In this document: positions 9,555 to 21,568 of the stretch, piece after piece
How the letters are laid out: every line of letters begins with the position of its first letter
Numbering within the stretch: the stretch's first letter is position 1
Source of the DNA: Deltaproteobacteria bacterium
GTDB lineage: Bacteria; Myxococcota_A; Polyangia; JAAYKL01
Length of the DNA: 56,902 nt
Direction: 5' to 3'
Assembly: GCA_016935665.1 (NCBI GenBank)
Contig: JAFGQN010000188.1
Coordinates: 1-56,902, forward strand
The notes under the pieces: model-generated
Databases searched by the model: none
What the model was told of the DNA's origin: nothing
The model's input: only the letters and a program-made list of their open reading frames with translations
Translations under genes and position numbers: made by a program

Positions 9555-11120
9555 TCAGAGCAAAAGAAACAGAAATTTCATCAATGCAGGAGCAGGTGCG
9601 CCGTTGCGGCCTGGTGTCTCACAGGCGCACCCTTCCTGATTCGACGCCAACTCCCCCCCCACACTGGAAGAATCCCCTGTGGCAGAGGTGCTGGTGTCAA
9701 AGGGCGCGAGTTCGGTATCTGTCACGGGTTGGATGTCGTCGTCGTGCCACTCAAAGGCCCCCACATCCACGCCATTTCCCTGGGGTCTGGGGATACCATC
9801 CCTATCCAGTGCAGGCGCCCACTCTGCGAGACCGGCATCCAACGCCGAGCTTTGCGGCAGCAGGTGAAAATCGAAATTGTCCATATCTACAAAATACGCA
9901 GATGCATCTTTGATAATTATGTTGCCCATGGTCTCCGGGGTATCCATCCCACTCACTGCTGTTGTCAGATTGTTGGCAATGACGCAGTCCTGCACTGGGG
10001 TGCCATCTTTGTGGTCGTGAAACATGATCCATGGCGGTCCCGGGTCATCGTTGTTGGGGTCGAGAACGGTGTTGTTCACGATACGCGAATTCCGTGCACC
10101 ATAAAACGAGATGCCGTGCCAGTGATCGGTGAAAATCACGTTATTTTCCACCACCCAATCCACAAACGTGCCATCAAAACAACCAATTCCCTGCAATGGT
10201 CCGCGAAAGGGCTGATTGGGATCCTCATAATTGATGATAGTGTTGCCTCTAAGCACAATTCCGGTCACTTCGCCGGTCCCAACTCCTCCTTCTCCCACAG
10301 ACCAGGACTGAAACCCGTCATCGTGATTGTCGTTTACATCGTAACAGTTTTTTACTGTGTTGTAGGCAAATATGGAGTAATCTCCAAGACCTCGCATGCC
10401 ATCACCGGCAAAGTTTTCCACCGTATTACCCACAATCTGTGAATAGCTCGCCCCCACTGCAATTCCAAAGTTTACATTTTTTATGCGATTATTCGTTATA
10501 GTGATGCGCGTGCCGTCGGCGTTGATGCCATTGGCGGGCAATTCGTTCCAGTCATCCAGTGTCCATCCACTGACATCTGCAACAGATTGAAGCGTGCACC
10601 AATCCACCGTGATGTCGTGTACCGGGCCTTGCCAGTCATGGGAATCAATATCAATCATCGTTGCCGGCTCATACACATCCCCATTTTCAGGACTGACCTG
10701 CAATCCGCGAAACGTCCAGTTGGCAGCGGCCCGTACAAGAATTCGCGAGAATCGAACCGATTCGTCCTGCGCGGCCTGTATCGTTATCATGCCGGTATTG
10801 TAGTACCCGGTCACATTCAGTTCGCCGTAATTTCCATCACGAAGCCATATGGTATCTCCGGCGCTTACCGGTGCGCCGACATTTTTGGGAACCAGCGATA
10901 CGCCGTCTGCCGGTGGCAGGCTTTCCCATTCCTCAGACGCAATCAAACCACTGTCGAGAACGTGCTGCAGGGATTGCCACGGATTCTCCGCTGTGCCATC
11001 ACCGAGATCACTTCCGTTTTTTATATCCACATAAAAATTCGCGGCATGGGCAGTATTGGAGAATAAAGTCAAAAAGGCAGACGCAATTGCGGCTGAAAAA
11101 AAATAATCAGAAATACGCAT
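9555..11120 (-). CDS. Secreted right-handed beta-helix repeat protein with short MYXO-CTERM-like end
   Basis: This 521-residue protein begins with a cleavable Sec signal (TLFSNTAHA) followed by NFYVDIKNGSDLGDG, the usual opening of pectate-lyase-like parallel beta-helix proteins. Repeated strands such as ITNNRIKNVNFGI, IVGNTVENFAGDG and IVNNTVLDPNN form the helix up to about residue 440. Such folds bind or cleave polysaccharides; no catalytic set is identifiable. The end, after a Thr/Ser/Asp linker, reads CACETPGRNG then a short hydrophobic stretch ending LFLLL. This matches the start of a MYXO-CTERM sorting tail but has no terminal basic cluster. GGGAGAT precedes the ATG. Confidence 0.85.
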   Translation of the reverse strand: MRISDYFFSAAIASAFLTLFSNTAHAANFYVDIKNGSDLGDGTAENPWQSLQHVLDSGLIASEEWESLPPADGVSLVPKNVGAPVSAGDTIWLRDGNYGELNVTGYYNTGMITIQAAQDESVRFSRILVRAAANWTFRGLQVSPENGDVYEPATMIDIDSHDWQGPVHDITVDWCTLQSVADVSGWTLDDWNELPANGINADGTRITITNNRIKNVNFGIAVGASYSQIVGNTVENFAGDGMRGLGDYSIFAYNTVKNCYDVNDNHDDGFQSWSVGEGGVGTGEVTGIVLRGNTIINYEDPNQPFRGPLQGIGCFDGTFVDWVVENNVIFTDHWHGISFYGARNSRIVNNTVLDPNNDDPGPPWIMFHDHKDGTPVQDCVIANNLTTAVSGMDTPETMGNIIIKDASAYFVDMDNFDFHLLPQSSALDAGLAEWAPALDRDGIPRPQGNGVDVGAFEWHDDDIQPVTDTELAPFDTSTSATGDSSSVGGELASNQEGCACETPGRNGAPAPALMKFLFLLL

Positions 11121-11298: not shown

Positions 11299-12930
11299 TT
11301 ATTTTTTTGGGGGCGCCGGGAACCCGTAATCGGTCTGCAGCGTCTCTGAATCGGTGGGCATCGCATAGTCCGGCATTCCGTATTCCAGTACTGAATGCGT
11401 ATCCGAATCCACAGGCATTCCGTATTCCAGTACTGAATGCGTATCCGAATCCACAGGCATTCCGTATTCCAGCACGGATTCCGAAGAGGTATCGGCGGGC
11501 ATACCATAATCCTCGTCGGTGGGCATGTCCGTTTCAGAATCGGTGGGCATCGCATAGTCCGGCATTCCGTATTCCAGTACTGAATGCGTATCCGAATCCA
11601 CAGGCATTCCGTATTCCAGCACCGGCTCTGTGTCTTTGGGTTCCCCCGTATCCGAGTCACTGTCTTTCACGCTGGTGGCTGTATCCTTCGATGTCGTCGT
11701 ATCTGAGGCCGAATCTTCAGTTGCACTATCATGCGTATCTGAATCCACCACGGAATCGGTGTCCTCGGGCATCCCATAATCTTCCTCACATGCGGCCACC
11801 CCCGCCCCAAGCAGCATGGCCAGAGTAATGGCTGCCGCCTGTTTCGAAATATATTGTCCGCTTAATCTCTGTTCGTGATACGCCCTGTAAATGCACATGG
11901 GGTTTTCCACCCCATCGCCGGAAGCCACTTTCTTCGCAGTGCATCCGCCTTTACAAATCGACGCCTTGTCACAGGTCTTACAAAATCCCCCCAACTCATT
12001 GATAGACCAGTTGCGCGTATACGAAAACGCCCCCTCCCGATGCCAAATCTCCGACAATGACGTATCGCGGATATTCCCTTCCACAAAATTCTGTCCCTTT
12101 GAGTTATAACCGGCCATGATGGACAAACACCCCTTGATGTTGCCATTTGATTCTATCCCAATCACCGTTTTCCCCGCTCCGCAACCGCTAAAATGGTTTC
12201 CTCCGCTGGCTTTGCGCAGTGTTTTTTCGTTGGGCCCAAAGTAGCCCACCGAGTCCGAGGGATGAATGCGAATGGGGCTTTTTTTAATCATTTTAGCAAG
12301 AGTTTTCTCCACGCCAATCAATTGCCCAGGCGCCAGCAGCATATCCCGATGGTCGCTCATATTGCCCATATCGGTTCCCAGCTGAATTTGCCAGCCATAG
12401 GCCCCCTTCTCGACAATCAGCTGGTGAATGGTCTCCAACTCATTGAGATTGCGCGTGTTCAGGTGAGTCAATACCGCAAACGGCATGCGTTCTTCTCTGC
12501 AAATATCCATGGTCTGTGTCAGCTGACGAAAATGGCCAATACGTCCGCGAATAAAATCATGGGTTTGCGCCACGCCGCCATCCAGGCTCAAACCGATGCC
12601 CGATAGCCCCTTGCGCTTTGCCGTTCGCACAGCATCCCGGTCCATAACAACCGCATTGGTGATCATGCCCGCCCGAATTCCCACTCGGGTGGCCGCTTCA
12701 ATGATCTCCGGCCAATCCTCCCGACATGTGGGCTCTCCACCGGAAATAGTTACCCACTCCATCCCCAGCGATTTCAACTCCGAAAACATTTGTCTGATTT
12801 CGTCGATTGTGAGTTCGTTGTCTCTGGCCTTTCCCGCACGGGAACCGCAATGCTTGCATCTAAGGTTACACTTCAAGGTGGCTTCAAATACCCCGCGACG
12901 AGGTACGTAAATCGATGTTTGTGTCGCCAT
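11299..12930 (-). CDS. Radical SAM/SPASM enzyme fused to a lipoprotein-like YGMP-repeat tail
   Basis: About 543 residues in one uninterrupted frame. Residues 1-~345 are a radical SAM enzyme: C21xxxC25xxC28 for the SAM-binding cluster, then a SPASM region (GCGAGKTVIG, then CKTCDKASICKGGC and a later Cys) for auxiliary Fe-S clusters. This is the architecture of peptide-modifying maturases. Residues ~366-381 then form a hydrophobic stretch ending GAGVAAC, a good lipobox with Cys381. The last ~160 residues are Asp/Ser/Thr-rich and hold seven YGMP, two YAMP and one final YGFP motif. I recall separate rSAM/lipoprotein partner systems in Bacteroidetes with YGxP motifs after the lipid Cys; here enzyme and putative substrate would be one chain. 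A Met at 11898 could restart translation, but no clear ribosome site precedes it. Confidence 0.85.
   Translation of the reverse strand: MATQTSIYVPRRGVFEATLKCNLRCKHCGSRAGKARDNELTIDEIRQMFSELKSLGMEWVTISGGEPTCREDWPEIIEAATRVGIRAGMITNAVVMDRDAVRTAKRKGLSGIGLSLDGGVAQTHDFIRGRIGHFRQLTQTMDICREERMPFAVLTHLNTRNLNELETIHQLIVEKGAYGWQIQLGTDMGNMSDHRDMLLAPGQLIGVEKTLAKMIKKSPIRIHPSDSVGYFGPNEKTLRKASGGNHFSGCGAGKTVIGIESNGNIKGCLSIMAGYNSKGQNFVEGNIRDTSLSEIWHREGAFSYTRNWSINELGGFCKTCDKASICKGGCTAKKVASGDGVENPMCIYRAYHEQRLSGQYISKQAAAITLAMLLGAGVAACEEDYGMPEDTDSVVDSDTHDSATEDSASDTTTSKDTATSVKDSDSDTGEPKDTEPVLEYGMPVDSDTHSVLEYGMPDYAMPTDSETDMPTDEDYGMPADTSSESVLEYGMPVDSDTHSVLEYGMPVDSDTHSVLEYGMPDYAMPTDSETLQTDYGFPAPPKK
11348..11630. repeat. 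42-bp tandem repeats and a 189-bp duplication inside the rSAM fusion gene
   Basis: A 42-base unit beginning GGCATTCCGTATTCCAG starts at 11372, 11414 and 11456 (the last partial), and again at 11561 and 11603. The block beginning GAATCGGTGGGC recurs at 11348 and 11537, 189 bases apart. Both lengths are multiples of three, so the frame is kept. Each 42-base unit encodes 14 residues around LEYGMPVDSDTH. The near-identity at the DNA level points to recent duplication. Confidence 0.92.
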
Positions 12931-13143
12931 AATGAGTCCTTTCGGCAGTAAGTCCGTTAAAGTTGGTTAAAGTACGCAATGCAAAATCGTACCAGAAAAT
13001 GCGAAGATAATCCTGGAAAAAAGCATCGTTGAATTAATGCATTTTAGCGGGGAAGAACTGGCGGGCGAACTATCCCATTTCCATTGCCTGGATCTGTTGG
13101 GCTGTTATGTGTTATGTTTTAGTCTGTTGCAGGAATTAAAATC

Positions 13144-14079
13144 ATGAATATTGTCCGTGCCCACAAACTAAAAGATCATTTCGTCGAACTGCTGCGCAGC
13201 GCCTCCTCTCAATTACCGGGAGATGTGGTGGACGCACTGCAGCAGGGCTTTCACCAGGAAGACAAAGGGTCGCCGGCTCACATGGCCATGGAAATCATTT
13301 TAAAAAATATTGAGCTGTCCAAAGCCAACAGCACACCACTGTGTCAGGATACAGGCACCAATATCTGGCACGTGTATCACCCGCAGCATATTTGCAAAAC
13401 CGCTCTGGAAGAGATGATTCGCGATGCCACCGAAGAAGCGTGCCGGCTTTCCTATTTGCGCGCCAATGCGGTCGATCCGGTGAGTGGGCTGAACAGTGGC
13501 AACAATCTGGGGCTTCGCTTTCCGGTTATTTCCTTTTACGAATGGCGTTCCTCCGCTGTGCGCGCGTCAGTGATGCTGAAAGGCGGTGGATGTGAAAATG
13601 TATCAACACAATATGCCCTGCCCCACGAATCGCTTCAGGCCGGTCGCGACCTCGACGGTGTTCGAAAAGTGGTGCTGGATGCGGTGTTCAAAGCCCAGGG
13701 ACGCGGTTGTGCCCCCGGGATTATTGGTGTTGGCATCGGCGGCGATCGTATTACCGGCATGATTGAAGCCAAGCACCAGCTGTGGCGGGATTTAGCTGAC
13801 CGAAATCCCGTTGCACTTTTGGATAAACTGGAACAGCGATTGCACGACGAATGCAATCAGCTGGGCATTGGTCCCATGGGCTACGGCGGTAAAACAACCG
13901 TTCTGGGCGTAAAAGCCGGCGCTATCCATCGCGTGCCCGCCTCTTATTTCGTTTCCATTTCTTATATGTGCTGGGCGTCGAGAAAAGCGAGTGTTACCAT
14001 TGCGCCTTCTGGAAAAACCACATTTCATAAACGGGTGCCGCGTTCTATGACCTGCAACACCCCCAATTGCAAAGGGTAA
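13144..14079 (+). CDS. Class I fumarate hydratase, alpha subunit
   Basis: This 311-residue iron-sulfur hydro-lyase subunit interconverts fumarate and malate in the TCA cycle. Motifs of the N-terminal class I fumarase/tartrate dehydratase family are clear: LCQDTGT with Cys67, the SGLNSGNN region, KGGGCENVS and GCAPGIIGVGIGGDR. The last is the usual cluster and substrate region. The beta subunit follows after 4 bases, so this is the split two-subunit form. L(+)-tartrate dehydratase is the main alternative; a TCA role is more likely because sucCD are also in the window. AGGA precedes the ATG. Confidence 0.9.
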   Translation: MNIVRAHKLKDHFVELLRSASSQLPGDVVDALQQGFHQEDKGSPAHMAMEIILKNIELSKANSTPLCQDTGTNIWHVYHPQHICKTALEEMIRDATEEACRLSYLRANAVDPVSGLNSGNNLGLRFPVISFYEWRSSAVRASVMLKGGGCENVSTQYALPHESLQAGRDLDGVRKVVLDAVFKAQGRGCAPGIIGVGIGGDRITGMIEAKHQLWRDLADRNPVALLDKLEQRLHDECNQLGIGPMGYGGKTTVLGVKAGAIHRVPASYFVSISYMCWASRKASVTIAPSGKTTFHKRVPRSMTCNTPNCKG

Positions 14080-17003: not shown

Positions 17004-18059
17004 CTACATCCTGCCGGTCACCTTGTACACCCATGCCAGTAATGATGCCACTGCCCCGAACAGTTCTCTGGGAATGGGCTTTCCCACCTTGCCATTTTTG
17101 TAAAGCGATCTCGCCAGAGGCGGGTCAGTCACGACGGGTATGTTATTATGTCGCGCTTCGGCGCGAATTACTGCAGCTACATCATCCACTCCGGCAGCCA
17201 CGATGATGGGCGCTTCATGTTTGGCGACGTCATATTGAATCGCCACCGAATAGTGCGTGGGGTTCACTACCACAACGTCTGCTTCGGCCACGTTCCCTCT
17301 CATGCGAGACATGGCCATCTCTATTTGTTTGCCGCGGATTCTTGATTTGATTCTGGGGTCGCCTTCGGTATCTTTGTGTTCCTGTTTTACTTCGTCCTTG
17401 GTCATTTTCATTTTCTGCTTGTGCCGCCAGCGTTCGATGATCACATCGAGTACTGCGATAAACGCCAGTGCCAGAATAACAATCAGTACAATGCGCAGAC
17501 ACATGCTGCCAATCTTGGACAGAATCTCAAGTGGCGTCAGCCCCAGCAATCGGCCATTGTGTTTCACTTCATCCCATAGCGCGAGGAAGGAAAGCGTACC
17601 GATAATGGCAATTTTCACCAGAGATTTTAAAATCTCATATACGGTGCTTTTTGAAAACAGCATGGATTTTAATTTGGGCAACGGATTAAATCTGTTGATG
17701 TTGGGTTCCATGGGTTGGAATGAGAAATTGAAGCCCACCTGGGCAATCTGCGCCGCCAGCCCCAGGATCAATCCGGTCAACAAAATGGGTGCAATCACAG
17801 TCAGAGTGACGCGAACACCGCGAAAAAAGAAATTGGTAAAGTTCTCATACTTCTCCATATGCCCCAGTGTTCCAGCGGCAAAATGAGTGAGTGTATTGGT
17901 GATGAGACTCCAACCACCCACAACGGCACTGGTTCCCGCCAAAAGAGCAACCACGGACGCCATATCCTGACTTCGTGATACGTCGCCCTTCTCTTTGAAT
18001 CGCTTCTCCTGCTTCGCGGTAGGGTCTTCAGTGCGATCATCCTGGTCAGTATCGGCCAC
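17004..18059 (-). CDS. flhB: Flagellar export protein FlhB
   Basis: About 351 residues. FlhB is the export-apparatus switch that changes substrate from rod/hook to filament proteins. It has an N-terminal charged segment, four hydrophobic helices between ~35 and 210, and a cytoplasmic domain with the autocleavage motif NPTH (VVVVNPTHYSVAI). Translation most likely starts at GTG 18059, which has AGGAGG seven bases upstream; the ATG at 18077 would place that site inside the gene. It is the last recognisable flagellar gene here; flhA does not follow. Confidence 0.96.
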   Translation of the reverse strand: MADTDQDDRTEDPTAKQEKRFKEKGDVSRSQDMASVVALLAGTSAVVGGWSLITNTLTHFAAGTLGHMEKYENFTNFFFRGVRVTLTVIAPILLTGLILGLAAQIAQVGFNFSFQPMEPNINRFNPLPKLKSMLFSKSTVYEILKSLVKIAIIGTLSFLALWDEVKHNGRLLGLTPLEILSKIGSMCLRIVLIVILALAFIAVLDVIIERWRHKQKMKMTKDEVKQEHKDTEGDPRIKSRIRGKQIEMAMSRMRGNVAEADVVVVNPTHYSVAIQYDVAKHEAPIIVAAGVDDVAAVIRAEARHNNIPVVTDPPLARSLYKNGKVGKPIPRELFGAVASLLAWVYKVTGRM

Positions 18060-18073
18060 CTGATTACCTCCTT

Positions 18074-18856
18074 TCAAATGCTCTGGAGCACGTCGCTCAC
18101 TAGTGTGTCAATGGATAAAACGAGGGCTCGCGTGAATGCGACTATATTGGGAACAGCCGCTTTCAGCGATAAAAGACCCACGCCAATGGATACCGCAAAA
18201 CTGAGTACAAACAGATTTACTTTGGGCGCCACGCGCGCCAGCATTCCAAGGGACACCATGACTCCCATCAGCGTCACCAGTACCGGCGCCGCCAGCTGAA
18301 TTGCGGCAGAAAACATCATGCCGCCCTTGCGAACCAGCACAAGACCGGCATCCCCACTGAAAATCACCTGTCCTGGGCCTAAAATGCGAAAGGAATCAAT
18401 AATATACCGAATCAGCAGCAAATGAATATCAAGGGCAAAAAACAGCAGTGTGGCAATCATCCCCAGCAAACGCGCAGTAACCACCGATTGTGCGTTGGAC
18501 AGCGGATCGATAGCCTGGGAAAAACCAAGCCCCATGGGAACCCCAAGTACCTGGCCCGCAGTTTCAACTGCACCAAAAACCAATTGCGACGCCAATCCCG
18601 CACAGGCTCCCAGTGCTGCTTCGCCAAATACAGCAATGATGAGGTCAGTGGGTTCCAAAGAGATGGGCGTCAGATTGGGCAAACCAGTGTACACGGCCAG
18701 TGACATCACAAAAATTGCCGCGGCCAGAATTCGTTTAGGGACGAGATTGCCCCCAAAAGTGGGTATGGCTAAAAGAAGAAACCCCAATCGGGTCATGATC
18801 ATGGTAATGGTCACGAACGTGGGCAGAAGCAACTCCGTGTCCATAAATCCAGGCAT
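18074..18856 (-). CDS. fliR: Flagellar export protein FliR
   Basis: This 260-residue inner-membrane component of the flagellar type III export gate forms a complex with FliP and FliQ. It has five to six hydrophobic segments and the family stretches GFLLLAIPTFGG and VPMGLGFSQAIDP. The start ATG overlaps the fliQ stop as TGATG, with GGAGCGAG ahead of it, so translation is coupled. Confidence 0.96.
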   Translation of the reverse strand: MPGFMDTELLLPTFVTITMIMTRLGFLLLAIPTFGGNLVPKRILAAAIFVMSLAVYTGLPNLTPISLEPTDLIIAVFGEAALGACAGLASQLVFGAVETAGQVLGVPMGLGFSQAIDPLSNAQSVVTARLLGMIATLLFFALDIHLLLIRYIIDSFRILGPGQVIFSGDAGLVLVRKGGMMFSAAIQLAAPVLVTLMGVMVSLGMLARVAPKVNLFVLSFAVSIGVGLLSLKAAVPNIVAFTRALVLSIDTLVSDVLQSI

Positions 18857-19128
18857 CAGCTCGCTCCAAGCGCAACAAACTTCACCATCATTTCATGAAA
18901 AAAAGCAATGAGTTTTCCCATCGACCAATCCCCTACCAGCAACAGTGTGACAAATACCGCACCGAGCTTGGGAACGAACGTCAGTGACGATTCCTGAATT
19001 TGCGTTGCCGCCTGCATCACAGCCACAAACAATCCCACAGCCATCGCTGCACCAAGAGGCGGTCCAATGACAAACAGAACCGTCAGTAAGCCTTCAACTA
19101 CGATTTCAGTGATGAATTCAGAGTTCAT
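18856..19128 (-). CDS. fliQ: Flagellar export protein FliQ
   Basis: This 90-residue protein has two transmembrane helices and is a standard subunit of the FliPQR export gate. The order, length and the motif VAVMQAATQIQESSLTFVPK are typical of the family. It starts one base inside the fliP stop and ends overlapping fliR, so the three gate genes are translationally coupled. Confidence 0.96.
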   Translation of the reverse strand: MNSEFITEIVVEGLLTVLFVIGPPLGAAMAVGLFVAVMQAATQIQESSLTFVPKLGAVFVTLLLVGDWSMGKLIAFFHEMMVKFVALGAS

Positions 19129-19877
19129 TACCCACCTCCGGTAAAGCTTTTAACAATAGACGAAACGATGAGATTCCAACCGTCCACCACTACAAAAAGC
19201 ATGAGTTTAAGTGGCAGCGATATAAGTGCAGGCGGCAGCATGATCATGCCCATGGACATGAGCATGGACGCGATGGCCACATCCAGCACGATAAAGGGAA
19301 TAAAGAGCATAAAGCCCATCTCAAACGCCGTCTTAAGTTCACTGATGACGAATGCGGGAATCAGTGCTCTGAACATCACATCTGTTTCCGTCTTAGGCAA
19401 TGGAAGTTCTGCCACCTCGTAAAAAAGAAGAAGATCTTTTTCGCGGGTATACTTGAGCATAAATTCCCGAACCGGACCTTTGGAGCGCTCAAATGCTTCT
19501 TCATCACTGATTTCCCCCGCCTTGTATGGAATTATTGCATTTTCATTTATTTCCACACCAACGGGCGCCATGATGAAAAACGTTAAAAACATTGCGAGGC
19601 CAATCATCACCTGATTGGGTGGTGCACTCTGCGTACCAATGGCTGTTCTTAAAAATGACAGGATAATCACAATACGTGTAAAACTCGTCAATGTCATCAG
19701 TATGGCGGGAGCCAGTGCCAACACCGTAAGCAACGCCAAAATCTTCAGACCGGTGACCATCTCACCGGGTTCATCAGTGGACCCAACGGAAATATCGATA
19801 CTGGGAGACGCAAACGCACTTTTCGCCAGTGGCAACGCCAATGCCAGTCCGGCAATTATGATTGCGGTGCGTTTCAT
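19128..19877 (-). CDS. fliP: Flagellar export protein FliP
   Basis: This 249-residue export-gate subunit carries a cleavable signal peptide (MKRTAIIIAGLALALPLAKSA), as FliP usually does. The family core is plain: TSFTRIVIILSFLRTAIGTQ, then SAPPNQVMIGLAMFLTFF, and the C-terminal helices with SMGMIMLPP. It lies between fliO and fliQ in the canonical order. Confidence 0.97.
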   Translation of the reverse strand: MKRTAIIIAGLALALPLAKSAFASPSIDISVGSTDEPGEMVTGLKILALLTVLALAPAILMTLTSFTRIVIILSFLRTAIGTQSAPPNQVMIGLAMFLTFFIMAPVGVEINENAIIPYKAGEISDEEAFERSKGPVREFMLKYTREKDLLLFYEVAELPLPKTETDVMFRALIPAFVISELKTAFEMGFMLFIPFIVLDVAIASMLMSMGMIMLPPALISLPLKLMLFVVVDGWNLIVSSIVKSFTGGG

Positions 19878-19883
19878 GGTTCC

Positions 19884-21224
19884 CTATGCCCTGTAGTTGC
19901 TTTCAGTATTGGTGGATTGCTGTTCCAGCGCGGTGCGCATTCTCGCCATGGAAATTAGGCCAGACACATTCGAAGGTGGCTCCGACGCTGAAAATGCGTT
20001 TGTTAACTGAGATGGTGAAATCTGCTGTCGCGCCTCAGTTCTGCGCTTCGATTTCTCTTTGGGTGTATCCCTCTCTCTCACAATTTTGTCGATGGCCTGC
20101 TGAAATTCATATGAAAAATTCGAGGTACCGGTATCGTCACGCTTTGCGGGTGCGGCTTTCTCATCCCTGACTTCAGAATACGGCGTCGCTGATATTTTGG
20201 GTTCTCTGGCCAGGCTGTCTTTTACGGCGTTATTGATTTCGGCCCGCAATCCACTCTCAATGCTCTCTGCTCCGCTCTCACTGGGGATAAGTCCCAAAGA
20301 TGTGACCGTCTTGTCGCCCACAGCCAGAAGAAAGCGACTGCCGTTTACCCTGGCCACCATCAATGTCTGGTGCATCCCCAGCTTTTTGCTCGACAAAATA
20401 TCAATATTGTCTTCCACAATATGACGTCGTGTTTTCTTTTTTTTCATGAACCAGGCAACGAATCCAAGAATGGCCGCAAACAACAGGCCACCGGCGTACT
20501 TCATTGTCTGAGAATTGGTTTGTTCAATTGTCTGCATGGGAGGCGCAGCACTTCTGGACTTATCAAAAATGGTACCCGCCAGTTTGTTGTCCTTCTCTTT
20601 TTTTGAAAATTGATGTTCAGCGGTGACATCGGACGACGCGTTTCCATCGATTTTCCCATTATCTTTTATAATTGCAGGCGCGGGATTTATCGCATCCTCA
20701 GCATCGCTTTTGGAATCAGGCGCAACACTCGCCAATCCCAGTGCAGCCTTTTGCTGCAACAGTGCCATCCGTCTCCGTTTCTGACCATCCGTTAAAACCA
20801 TGGAAACGATCAGATTGCCTTCCAGGGACATTACGGACAATCGATCGCATGCATCCAGTGTTTTGCCGGTGGGGTGAATCTGCAACACGCTGTTGTCGGG
20901 ACCACGCTGTACGACCCGCACTTTTTTGAGAGTGCTTCCACTTGGAATATCCAGTTCGCTGACTTCTCTGTTGTGCAGTGCCAGTCCAAAAAAACGAATG
21001 CGAATGGAGTCGCTGCTGCACACGATTTTTGAATCGTAATGTGCCATTGGCGGTGATACCACAAATCGAACAACATCAGTGGAAGGCATATTTTCAACAA
21101 TCGCTGCAGCAATTCTGGAAGTGCCAGCGCTGCCGGCATCGCTGGAGGACGGTGACGCAACGGCATGCACGCAGAACACCCCAACAGATACCATAGTAAA
21201 AACAGATATGTTAAAGGGCCTCAT
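19884..21224 (-). CDS. fliO: Long FliO-like flagellar assembly protein
   Basis: About 446 residues, much longer than the usual 100-200 of FliO. The N-terminus is a signal peptide. Residues ~50-140 resemble an AMIN-like periplasmic module (VVRFVVSPPMAHYD...SLEGNLIVSMVL). A single transmembrane helix near 240 (GGLLFAAILGFVAWF) precedes the FliO core (KLGMHQTLMVARVNGSRFLLAVG). A ~130-residue charged, probably disordered tail follows. FliO assists assembly of the FliP ring. The call rests on position between fliN and fliP plus the core motif. The ATG at 21224 is preferred over TTG 21230 because GGAG stands seven bases ahead. Confidence 0.8.
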   Translation of the reverse strand: MRPFNISVFTMVSVGVFCVHAVASPSSSDAGSAGTSRIAAAIVENMPSTDVVRFVVSPPMAHYDSKIVCSSDSIRIRFFGLALHNREVSELDIPSGSTLKKVRVVQRGPDNSVLQIHPTGKTLDACDRLSVMSLEGNLIVSMVLTDGQKRRRMALLQQKAALGLASVAPDSKSDAEDAINPAPAIIKDNGKIDGNASSDVTAEHQFSKKEKDNKLAGTIFDKSRSAAPPMQTIEQTNSQTMKYAGGLLFAAILGFVAWFMKKKKTRRHIVEDNIDILSSKKLGMHQTLMVARVNGSRFLLAVGDKTVTSLGLIPSESGAESIESGLRAEINNAVKDSLAREPKISATPYSEVRDEKAAPAKRDDTGTSNFSYEFQQAIDKIVRERDTPKEKSKRRTEARQQISPSQLTNAFSASEPPSNVSGLISMARMRTALEQQSTNTESNYRA

Positions 21225-21226
21225 TT

Positions 21227-21568
21227 TCAATCTCCAATCAAATTGTCTTCCGATGTCTGTTTAAACGGATCTTCTCCCACCACTTCCATCACACGTATGC
21301 CGTATCGTTCTCCAACCAGAACCGCTTCACCCCGGGCAACCAGCTTTCCATTGGCAAAAATGTCCAGATTGTCGCCCGCCGGCCTGTCGAGCTCCACCAC
21401 CGTTCCTGGCATAACTTCCACCAGTTCGCCCATTGTCATTGAGCGACGTCCCACTTCCACTGTCAGTTCGATAGGAATATCGAATAGAAAATTGATGGGC
21501 CGTTTTGCGGCGCCACGGTCTTGAGCTGTTTGCATCGCGCCTCCTTTTTTTTCATTCTCGCTGGTCAT
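21227..21568 (-). CDS. fliN: Flagellar motor switch protein FliN
   Basis: This 113-residue protein has a SpoA/FliN domain forming the base of the C-ring. The signatures are IPIELTVEVGRRSMTMGELV, then GTVVELDRPAGDNLDIFANG and the terminal GERYGIRVMEV. The length and motif match a minimal FliN. Its start overlaps the fliM stop by four bases, consistent with coupled synthesis of switch subunits. Confidence 0.96.
   Translation of the reverse strand: MTSENEKKGGAMQTAQDRGAAKRPINFLFDIPIELTVEVGRRSMTMGELVEVMPGTVVELDRPAGDNLDIFANGKLVARGEAVLVGERYGIRVMEVVGEDPFKQTSEDNLIGD

Follow-up and report, generated by a model that had tools for sequence, protein, structure and literature searches.

The DNA analyzed here, referred to as the window, is the whole stretch of 56,902 nucleotides at positions 1 to 56,902 of contig JAFGQN010000188.1, from Deltaproteobacteria bacterium assembly GCA_016935665.1, a fragmented genome assembly of 8.16 Mb in 249 contigs. 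The ORF listing of the window places a single open frame of 543 amino acids at 11299-12930 on the minus strand. A first-pass annotation of these letters had described one frame encoding an enzyme, a lipobox, and an acidic tail with ten motifs, and this observation is confirmed; its coordinates held, and the strand is corrected to minus, the plus strand at these positions being riddled with stops. The frame is unbroken and GC3 is even across the junction between enzyme and tail. Table 1 lists the features of the gene.

Table 1. Features of the fused gene and their positions in the window
Feature	Position	Strand	Remarks
Fused gene: radical SAM/SPASM maturase, internal signal sequence/lipobox, YGxP lipoprotein tail	11299..12930	-	543 aa, ATG start, TAA stop
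Shine-Dalgarno AAGGA, 6 nt 5' of ATG	12937..12941	-	Read in sequence
Radical SAM domain, residues 18-171	12418..12879	-	PF04055, E 8.8e-23, above Pfam cut-off
CNLRCKHC = CxxxCxxC, [4Fe-4S]-SAM cysteines C21, C25, C28	12847..12870	-	
SPASM domain, auxiliary-cluster cysteines C250, C268, C317, C320, C326, C330, C346	11893..12183	-	
Linker and hydrophobic segment, residues 347-380	11791..11892	-	Internal signal anchor role inferred
Lipobox cysteine Cys381 (GVAAC)	11788..11790	-	Conserved spacing and small -1 residue in fused homologues
Acidic lipoprotein tail, residues 381-543, candidate substrate, ten Y-G/A-x-P sites	11302..11790	-	
Site 1, YGMP (DYGMP, Y385)	11767..11778	-	
Site 2, YGMP (EYGMP, Y440)	11602..11613	-	
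Site 3, YGMP (EYGMP, Y454)	11560..11571	-	
Site 4, YAMP (DYAMP, Y459)	11545..11556	-	
Site 5, YGMP (DYGMP, Y475)	11497..11508	-	
Site 6, YGMP (EYGMP, Y489)	11455..11466	-	
Site 7, YGMP (EYGMP, Y503)	11413..11424	-	
Site 8, YGMP (EYGMP, Y517)	11371..11382	-	
Site 9, YAMP (DYAMP, Y522)	11356..11367	-	
Site 10, YGFP (DYGFP, Y535)	11317..11328	-	

The gene is flanked by a secreted protein that by eye resembles a right-handed beta-helix (9555-11120, minus strand) and by a fumarate-hydratase-like gene (13144-14079, plus strand). Farther along, a run of genes that look like FlhB/FliR/FliQ/FliP/FliO, flagellar or type III export genes, occupies 17004-21230 on the minus strand, again judged by eye.

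Enzyme, hydrophobic segment, and tail

The claim that the enzyme half is a complete radical SAM/SPASM maturase held, on the strength of its Pfam domains and conserved cysteines. The SPASM match (residues 250-321), like that of the Radical SAM domain, is above its cut-off, and C250, C268, C317, C320, C326, and C346 are invariant in an alignment of 75 relatives. An AlphaFold model of the 543-residue protein has a mean pLDDT of 77 overall and exceeds 90 across most of the enzyme; the nearest solved folds in a fold search were the RiPP maturases SkfB, PqqE, and SuiB, with no splicease among the top matches. The best NCBIfam match is TIGR04103 (nif11-class peptide radical SAM maturase 3; E 4e-73, 246.4 bits against a cut-off of 725), followed by TIGR03913 (GDL-associated rSAM/SPASM; 241.6 bits, cut-off 591.75), and TIGR04133 (rSAM_w_lipo) scores 138.8 bits against 425. 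By their cut-offs, the enzyme is a member of none of the three. Membership in the TIGR04133/TIGR04134 pairs was considered and rejected, the enzyme lying under the cut-off and the tail lacking a TIGR04134 match; nor did TIGR04134 match anywhere else in the source genome.

Beyond C346, the last SPASM cysteine, AlphaFold predicts one continuous helix (residues 347-376) that leads away from the SPASM domain. No other 17-residue stretch of the protein is as hydrophobic as residues 365-381, which end in GVAAC, the cysteine being residue 381. Since the predicted helix connects the SPASM domain to the hydrophobic segment without a break, the latter fits a type II signal anchor that would leave the enzyme inside and the tail outside, although export itself is inferred. 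The N-terminal signal peptide expected of bacterial lipoproteins is absent; the signal is internal and follows about 360 residues of enzyme. Lipidation and signal peptidase II cleavage at Cys381 are likewise inferred. If they do occur, modification of the tail must come before them, because the clusters and SAM are cytoplasmic.

The tail has 163 residues, a net charge of -38, and exactly ten tyrosines, every one of them in a Y-G/A-x-P motif (8 YG, 2 YA), which bears out the earlier description of about 160 acidic residues with ten such motifs. Its eight YG sites meet the X-Tyr-Gly criterion of splicease substrates, with proline at +3 in all. Shuffled versions of the tail contained on average 0.09 motifs and never more than 4 (20,000 shuffles), compared to the ten observed. 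Part of this excess reflects recent duplication of one DNA repeat that affects several copies, and comparison with other genomes is therefore the better test of the motif. Across the whole 8.16-Mb genome, the pair pattern TAYGGNNTNCC-N(12-42)-TAYGGNNTNCC occurs only in the fused gene.

Away from the lipobox region, the sole tail stretch of at least three residues with a pLDDT above 50 is 488-496 (EYGMPVDSD, site 6). In the AlphaFold model of a second protein (L044), tail stretches 414-421 and 445-449 exceed 50. In both models these stretches overlap YGxP sites, which we regard as no more than a weak hint of docking, being a model prediction without contact distances. The first-pass suggestion that the tyrosines or the surrounding Met/Pro residues are modification targets held in part: the x position is not conserved as methionine in relatives (M, I, V, F, A, and G are among the residues found), and so the tyrosine and its neighbors are the likely target.

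Fused and split relatives in Myxococcota

We surveyed 290 genomes of the class and then inspected the loci singly. Because the profile used for this homologue search derives from fused proteins, it favors their recovery, and the ratio of fused to split systems is not a census. Within the class, the survey returned 29 fused proteins, all distinct, and when the search was widened to the phylum, 13 further loci came up, of which 10 were fused; the fusion thus recurs widely across the phylum Myxococcota. An HMM-type search for fused homologues had been proposed from the sequence alone, with a missed frameshift or stop named as what would refute the fusion; the dozens of independent fused homologues found show that this objection failed. 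The closest relative, from a Zodletone MAG (L001; Myxococcota by NCBI ranks), is fused, 74% identical over its full length, and has ten Y[GA]xP motifs of its own; it shares the same end with the window protein (QTDYGLPVPDKK compared to QTDYGFPAPPKK). Beta-helix-like and fumarate-hydratase-like genes lie near the fused gene in this MAG as well. The source genome has two further fused paralogues at 46-52% identity, with tails that contain YGIQP/YGMP and YSxP. A TPR-like protein (L004:927-1415, minus strand) overlaps the 3' end of a fused paralogue's gene; in another genome, a stand-alone enzyme of the clade carries a similar TPR-like domain as a fusion partner (L082:2468-4111, plus strand).

A tree of 129 enzymes, 40 of them fused, can be explained with only two changes of state, and a version with 30 rows also gave two, from which we infer that the fusion is old and arose once or twice. 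All 29 fused homologues have a cysteine 27-32 residues (once 40) past the end of the SPASM profile, preceded by a hydrophobic stretch and with G, A, S, or T at -1; the -3 position is looser than in the textbook lipobox in several of them. The first-pass annotation had the repeat half reaching the envelope through an internal signal, and of this claim the lipobox-like cysteine and its conservation are shown, while export and lipidation remain inferred.

The motif is also conserved in the tails. Together the 29, which come from different genomes, contain 75 Y[GAS]xP motifs, compared to 6.1 +/- 2.5 in shuffles, and 26 have at least one motif when one extra residue is allowed before the proline. 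Their 198 tyrosines are followed by glycine in 109 cases, and 93 have proline at +3. Two fused proteins with a lipobox and an acidic tail (L015:1504-2955, minus strand; L145:1408-2769, plus strand) have no YGxP motif, and their tails are perhaps decayed substrates or pure tethers. Fused tails from other families of the phylum (L150, L152, L153, L155, and L156) show a repeated CCxC[DE]YG[IV]xPExxxxECC, indicating that the Tyr-Gly site can sit inside a cysteine cluster.

Tail-less relatives of the enzyme often adjoin separate lipoproteins that carry the motif. For 86 such relatives we screened the same strand within 1.5 kb for a lipobox ORF in which Y[GA]xP occurs at least twice; 28 had one, compared to 0-3 for thirteen control motifs. 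With at least one motif the count was 41 of 86, and the next best control reached 20. These counts are approximate, since the single-motif partners at L067, L025, L061, and L064 and the three-motif partner at L027 look like chance, and 28 of 86 is the safer figure. The partner lipoproteins have only the lipobox and Y[GA]xP in common, their bodies being acidic, Gly-rich, Pro-rich, or Cys-rich. The motif therefore follows the enzyme clade and not the tail. This association is shown, and it makes a link between enzyme and substrate likely and well supported, the modification itself being inferred. It also answers the second objection foreseen in the first-pass annotation, that homologues without the tail might show no conservation of the motif. 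The link is not universal, since stand-alone enzymes of one family (L021, L022, L024, L026, L047, L048, L051, and L052) have no YGxP lipoprotein nearby. At six loci (L034, L035, L039, L113, L114, and L115) two radical SAM/SPASM genes of this clade lie side by side, in many cases overlapping, with no lipoprotein found; this is possibly a two-enzyme version.

A zinc-ribbon leader (CxxCxRHxR...CPFCG) precedes the signal sequence in 25 of 37 partner lipoproteins but is present in none of the fused proteins, which suggests that the fused enzyme replaces it. The ribbon likely serves as a substrate-recognition leader in the split systems, and covalent tethering would make such a leader needless in the fused ones; both roles are inferred. 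This N-terminus was seen in the separate lipoproteins of L079, L080, L084, L088-L091, and L097-L111. Similar ribbons are found at the C-terminus of Azospirillum and Aureibacter enzymes and at the N-terminus of a Tropicibacter enzyme, and a search of the source genome with the zinc-ribbon pattern was unspecific.

Comparison with known systems

PlpX, of the PlpX/PlpY spliceases of Pleurocapsa, is reported to belong to IPR026482 and to excise tyramine from Xaa-Tyr-Gly (PMC11002830); by its annotation, that entry corresponds to TIGR04103. The splice tags used with PlpXY, GPIRPLYGLPI and GPIRPGYGLPI, conform to XYGxP and do not need the RiPP leader (PMC10533398). The window enzyme shares with these systems its Radical SAM and SPASM domains, and theirs is its best-scoring curated family; the X-Y-G site followed by L-P occurs both in the PlpA-derived tags and in a Nostoc precursor. 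The window substrate differs in being a lipoprotein fused to its enzyme, multi-site and acidic, and X is D or E where the natural PlpX sites read MYG or LYG. No Nif11/NHLP leader family matched the tail, which directly follows the SPASM domain. A PlpY-like ORF was found neither in the window nor at any other locus, although a very divergent RRE could escape detection; the PqqD-like genes of the source genome lie only on other contigs, beside other radical SAM genes.

Outside Myxococcota, we examined the motif around the nearest plasmid-borne relatives of the enzyme. In Nostoc, an enzyme that passes the TIGR04103 cut-off (853 compared to 725 bits) adjoins a Nif11 precursor ending in GGRGSIALYGLPPELF, in which the end reads LYGLPPELF, and is followed by a 71-residue short ORF in the PlpY position. 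Azospirillum and Aureibacter enzymes of the TIGR03913 type adjoin small DUF1843 proteins with PYGPA, LYAAG, MYAAS, and PYGAG. These GDL-motif systems correspond to the second-best enzyme family of the window protein and have small partners that hold Y-G/A, but the partners have no lipobox and the window enzyme is under the cut-off. In Phocaeicola, the gene after that of a TIGR04133 enzyme (617 compared to 425) encodes a TIGR04134 lipoprotein (139 compared to 39.8) with CEYGTP. This pair, at L127:2402-3981 of Phocaeicola massiliensis (labelled plasmid), suggests that the Bacteroidota pairs share the YGxP site. They resemble the window system in pairing a SPASM enzyme with a lipoprotein partner with YGxP in its mature N-terminal part and differ in having separate genes, one site, and another lipoprotein body. 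At the loci examined, then, the substrates or neighbors of these enzyme families repeatedly show a small residue after tyrosine, and YGxP is the form in common with the spliceases.

The first-pass comparison to rSAM/lipoprotein pairs held on testing, given the Phocaeicola pair and the closer split pairs in the same class, with the correction that the nearer relative is the splicease family. The system would work like both a splicease RiPP system and an rSAM/lipoprotein pair, yet it belongs to neither curated family. Borosins of the OphMA type (PMC7878506) also have an enzyme domain that modifies a core at its own C-terminus in one polypeptide, but with an N-methyltransferase instead of a radical SAM enzyme and without a lipobox or export step. 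In DybA-type RiPP-lipoprotein hybrids (PMC12636315), a RiPP substrate is lipidated via the lipoprotein pathway after cytoplasmic modification, but the MNIO enzyme is separate and the signal peptide is N-terminal. We found no radical SAM enzyme with an internal lipobox and self-modifying fusion in the literature searched, which did not cover the principal survey of spliceases (Scott et al. 2022, Chem), where fused or lipoprotein cases may already be mentioned.

Proposed mechanism and its alternatives

Our main reading, to which we give a probability of roughly 0.6, is that the gene encodes a cis-acting, splicease-like RiPP-type maturase fused to its own lipoprotein substrate, with the tail exported. 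The enzyme half would modify the Y-G/A-x-P sites of its own tail in the cytoplasm, and the hydrophobic segment past the SPASM domain would then act as an internal signal anchor, by which the tail would pass across the inner membrane. Cys381 would be lipidated and cut by signal peptidase II, yielding an envelope lipoprotein with up to ten modified sites and leaving the enzyme half on the cytoplasmic side. Its function might be covalent protease inhibition or that of a reactive surface lipoprotein. The earlier proposal of enzyme and substrate in one self-modifying polypeptide is supported as to architecture; modification of the motif by the enzyme is untested, and it remains inferred along with tyramine excision (-135.07 Da at XYG), the export route, lipidation, cleavage, and function. 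That the same motif and nearest family mean the same reaction is also an inference.

Several observations count against this reading. The enzyme is far under the TIGR04103 cut-off (246 compared to 725), so that common chemistry cannot be taken for granted. PlpX requires the RRE partner PlpY, which was not found near any fused gene, although tethering could possibly substitute for it. Two of the ten sites are YA, and X is D or E, which departs from the natural PlpX sites; a few fused tails (L015 and L145) are motif-free; and it is unusual for a lipobox to lie inside a protein, behind a folded cytoplasmic domain.

The most credible rival, which remains possible, keeps the self-acting fusion but assigns it another chemistry at the tyrosine motif, such as a Tyr-centered C-C or ether cross-link, backbone epimerization, or oxidation, reactions known from other SPASM RiPP maturases. 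The sub-threshold splicease score favors it, as do the nearly equal score of TIGR03913, whose neighboring small DUF1843 proteins also have Y[GA], and the three different chemistries of the nearest folds, SkfB, PqqE, and SuiB. Against it, the conserved core of Tyr-Gly with proline at +3 is that of the Nostoc TIGR04103 system (LYGLP) and of the PlpA-derived tag (LYGLPI), and the motif offers no second conserved residue type as a cross-link partner. We consider it unlikely that the tail is merely a membrane tether or acidic spacer, with YGxP unmodified and the enzyme an anchored maturase for other proteins. The tail is indeed low in complexity, its repeats duplicate at the DNA level, and some fused tails (L015 and L145) lack the motif; however, next to tail-less enzymes, the separate lipoproteins have unrelated spacers (acidic, Gly-rich, or Cys-rich) and nothing in common but the lipobox and Y[GA]xP, and YGxP pairs spaced as closely as in the tested pattern occur nowhere else in the genome.

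There is still less to recommend translation of the tail from an internal start, with enzyme and lipoprotein as two products of one gene. An in-frame ATG, GTG, or TTG at least 17 codons before the cysteine is present in 19 of 29 fused genes, but its position is not conserved, it is missing from the other 10, and none precedes the hydrophobic segment in the window gene or its nearest relative. An assembly or sequencing artifact that joined two genes, conceivable in an assembly of 249 contigs, is all but excluded, because independent homologues from dozens of genomes, one a named MAG, carry the same fusion; the unbroken frame and even GC3 at the junction also speak against it.

Returning to the splicease-like reading, a bolder form of it seems to us slightly more likely to be wrong than right: the splicease would rewrite up to ten backbone sites of its own tail, which would be exported by the internal lipoprotein signal and cut free to present an electrophilic alpha-ketoamide array at the envelope, with the single chain making leader and RRE needless and the arrangement widespread in Myxococcota.

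If the main reading is true, a radical SAM RiPP maturase would here bring along both its substrate and an in-line envelope-targeting signal, and the splicease reaction would be linked to lipoproteins of the bacterial surface and not to small secreted peptides. Myxococcota would contain a large, testable family of such systems, both fused and split with zinc-ribbon leaders, possibly sharing a motif with the unexplained TIGR04133/TIGR04134 pairs of gut Bacteroidota. The role of rSAM/lipoprotein pairs could then be tested via one gene, because there is no separate precursor, leader, or RRE to guess.
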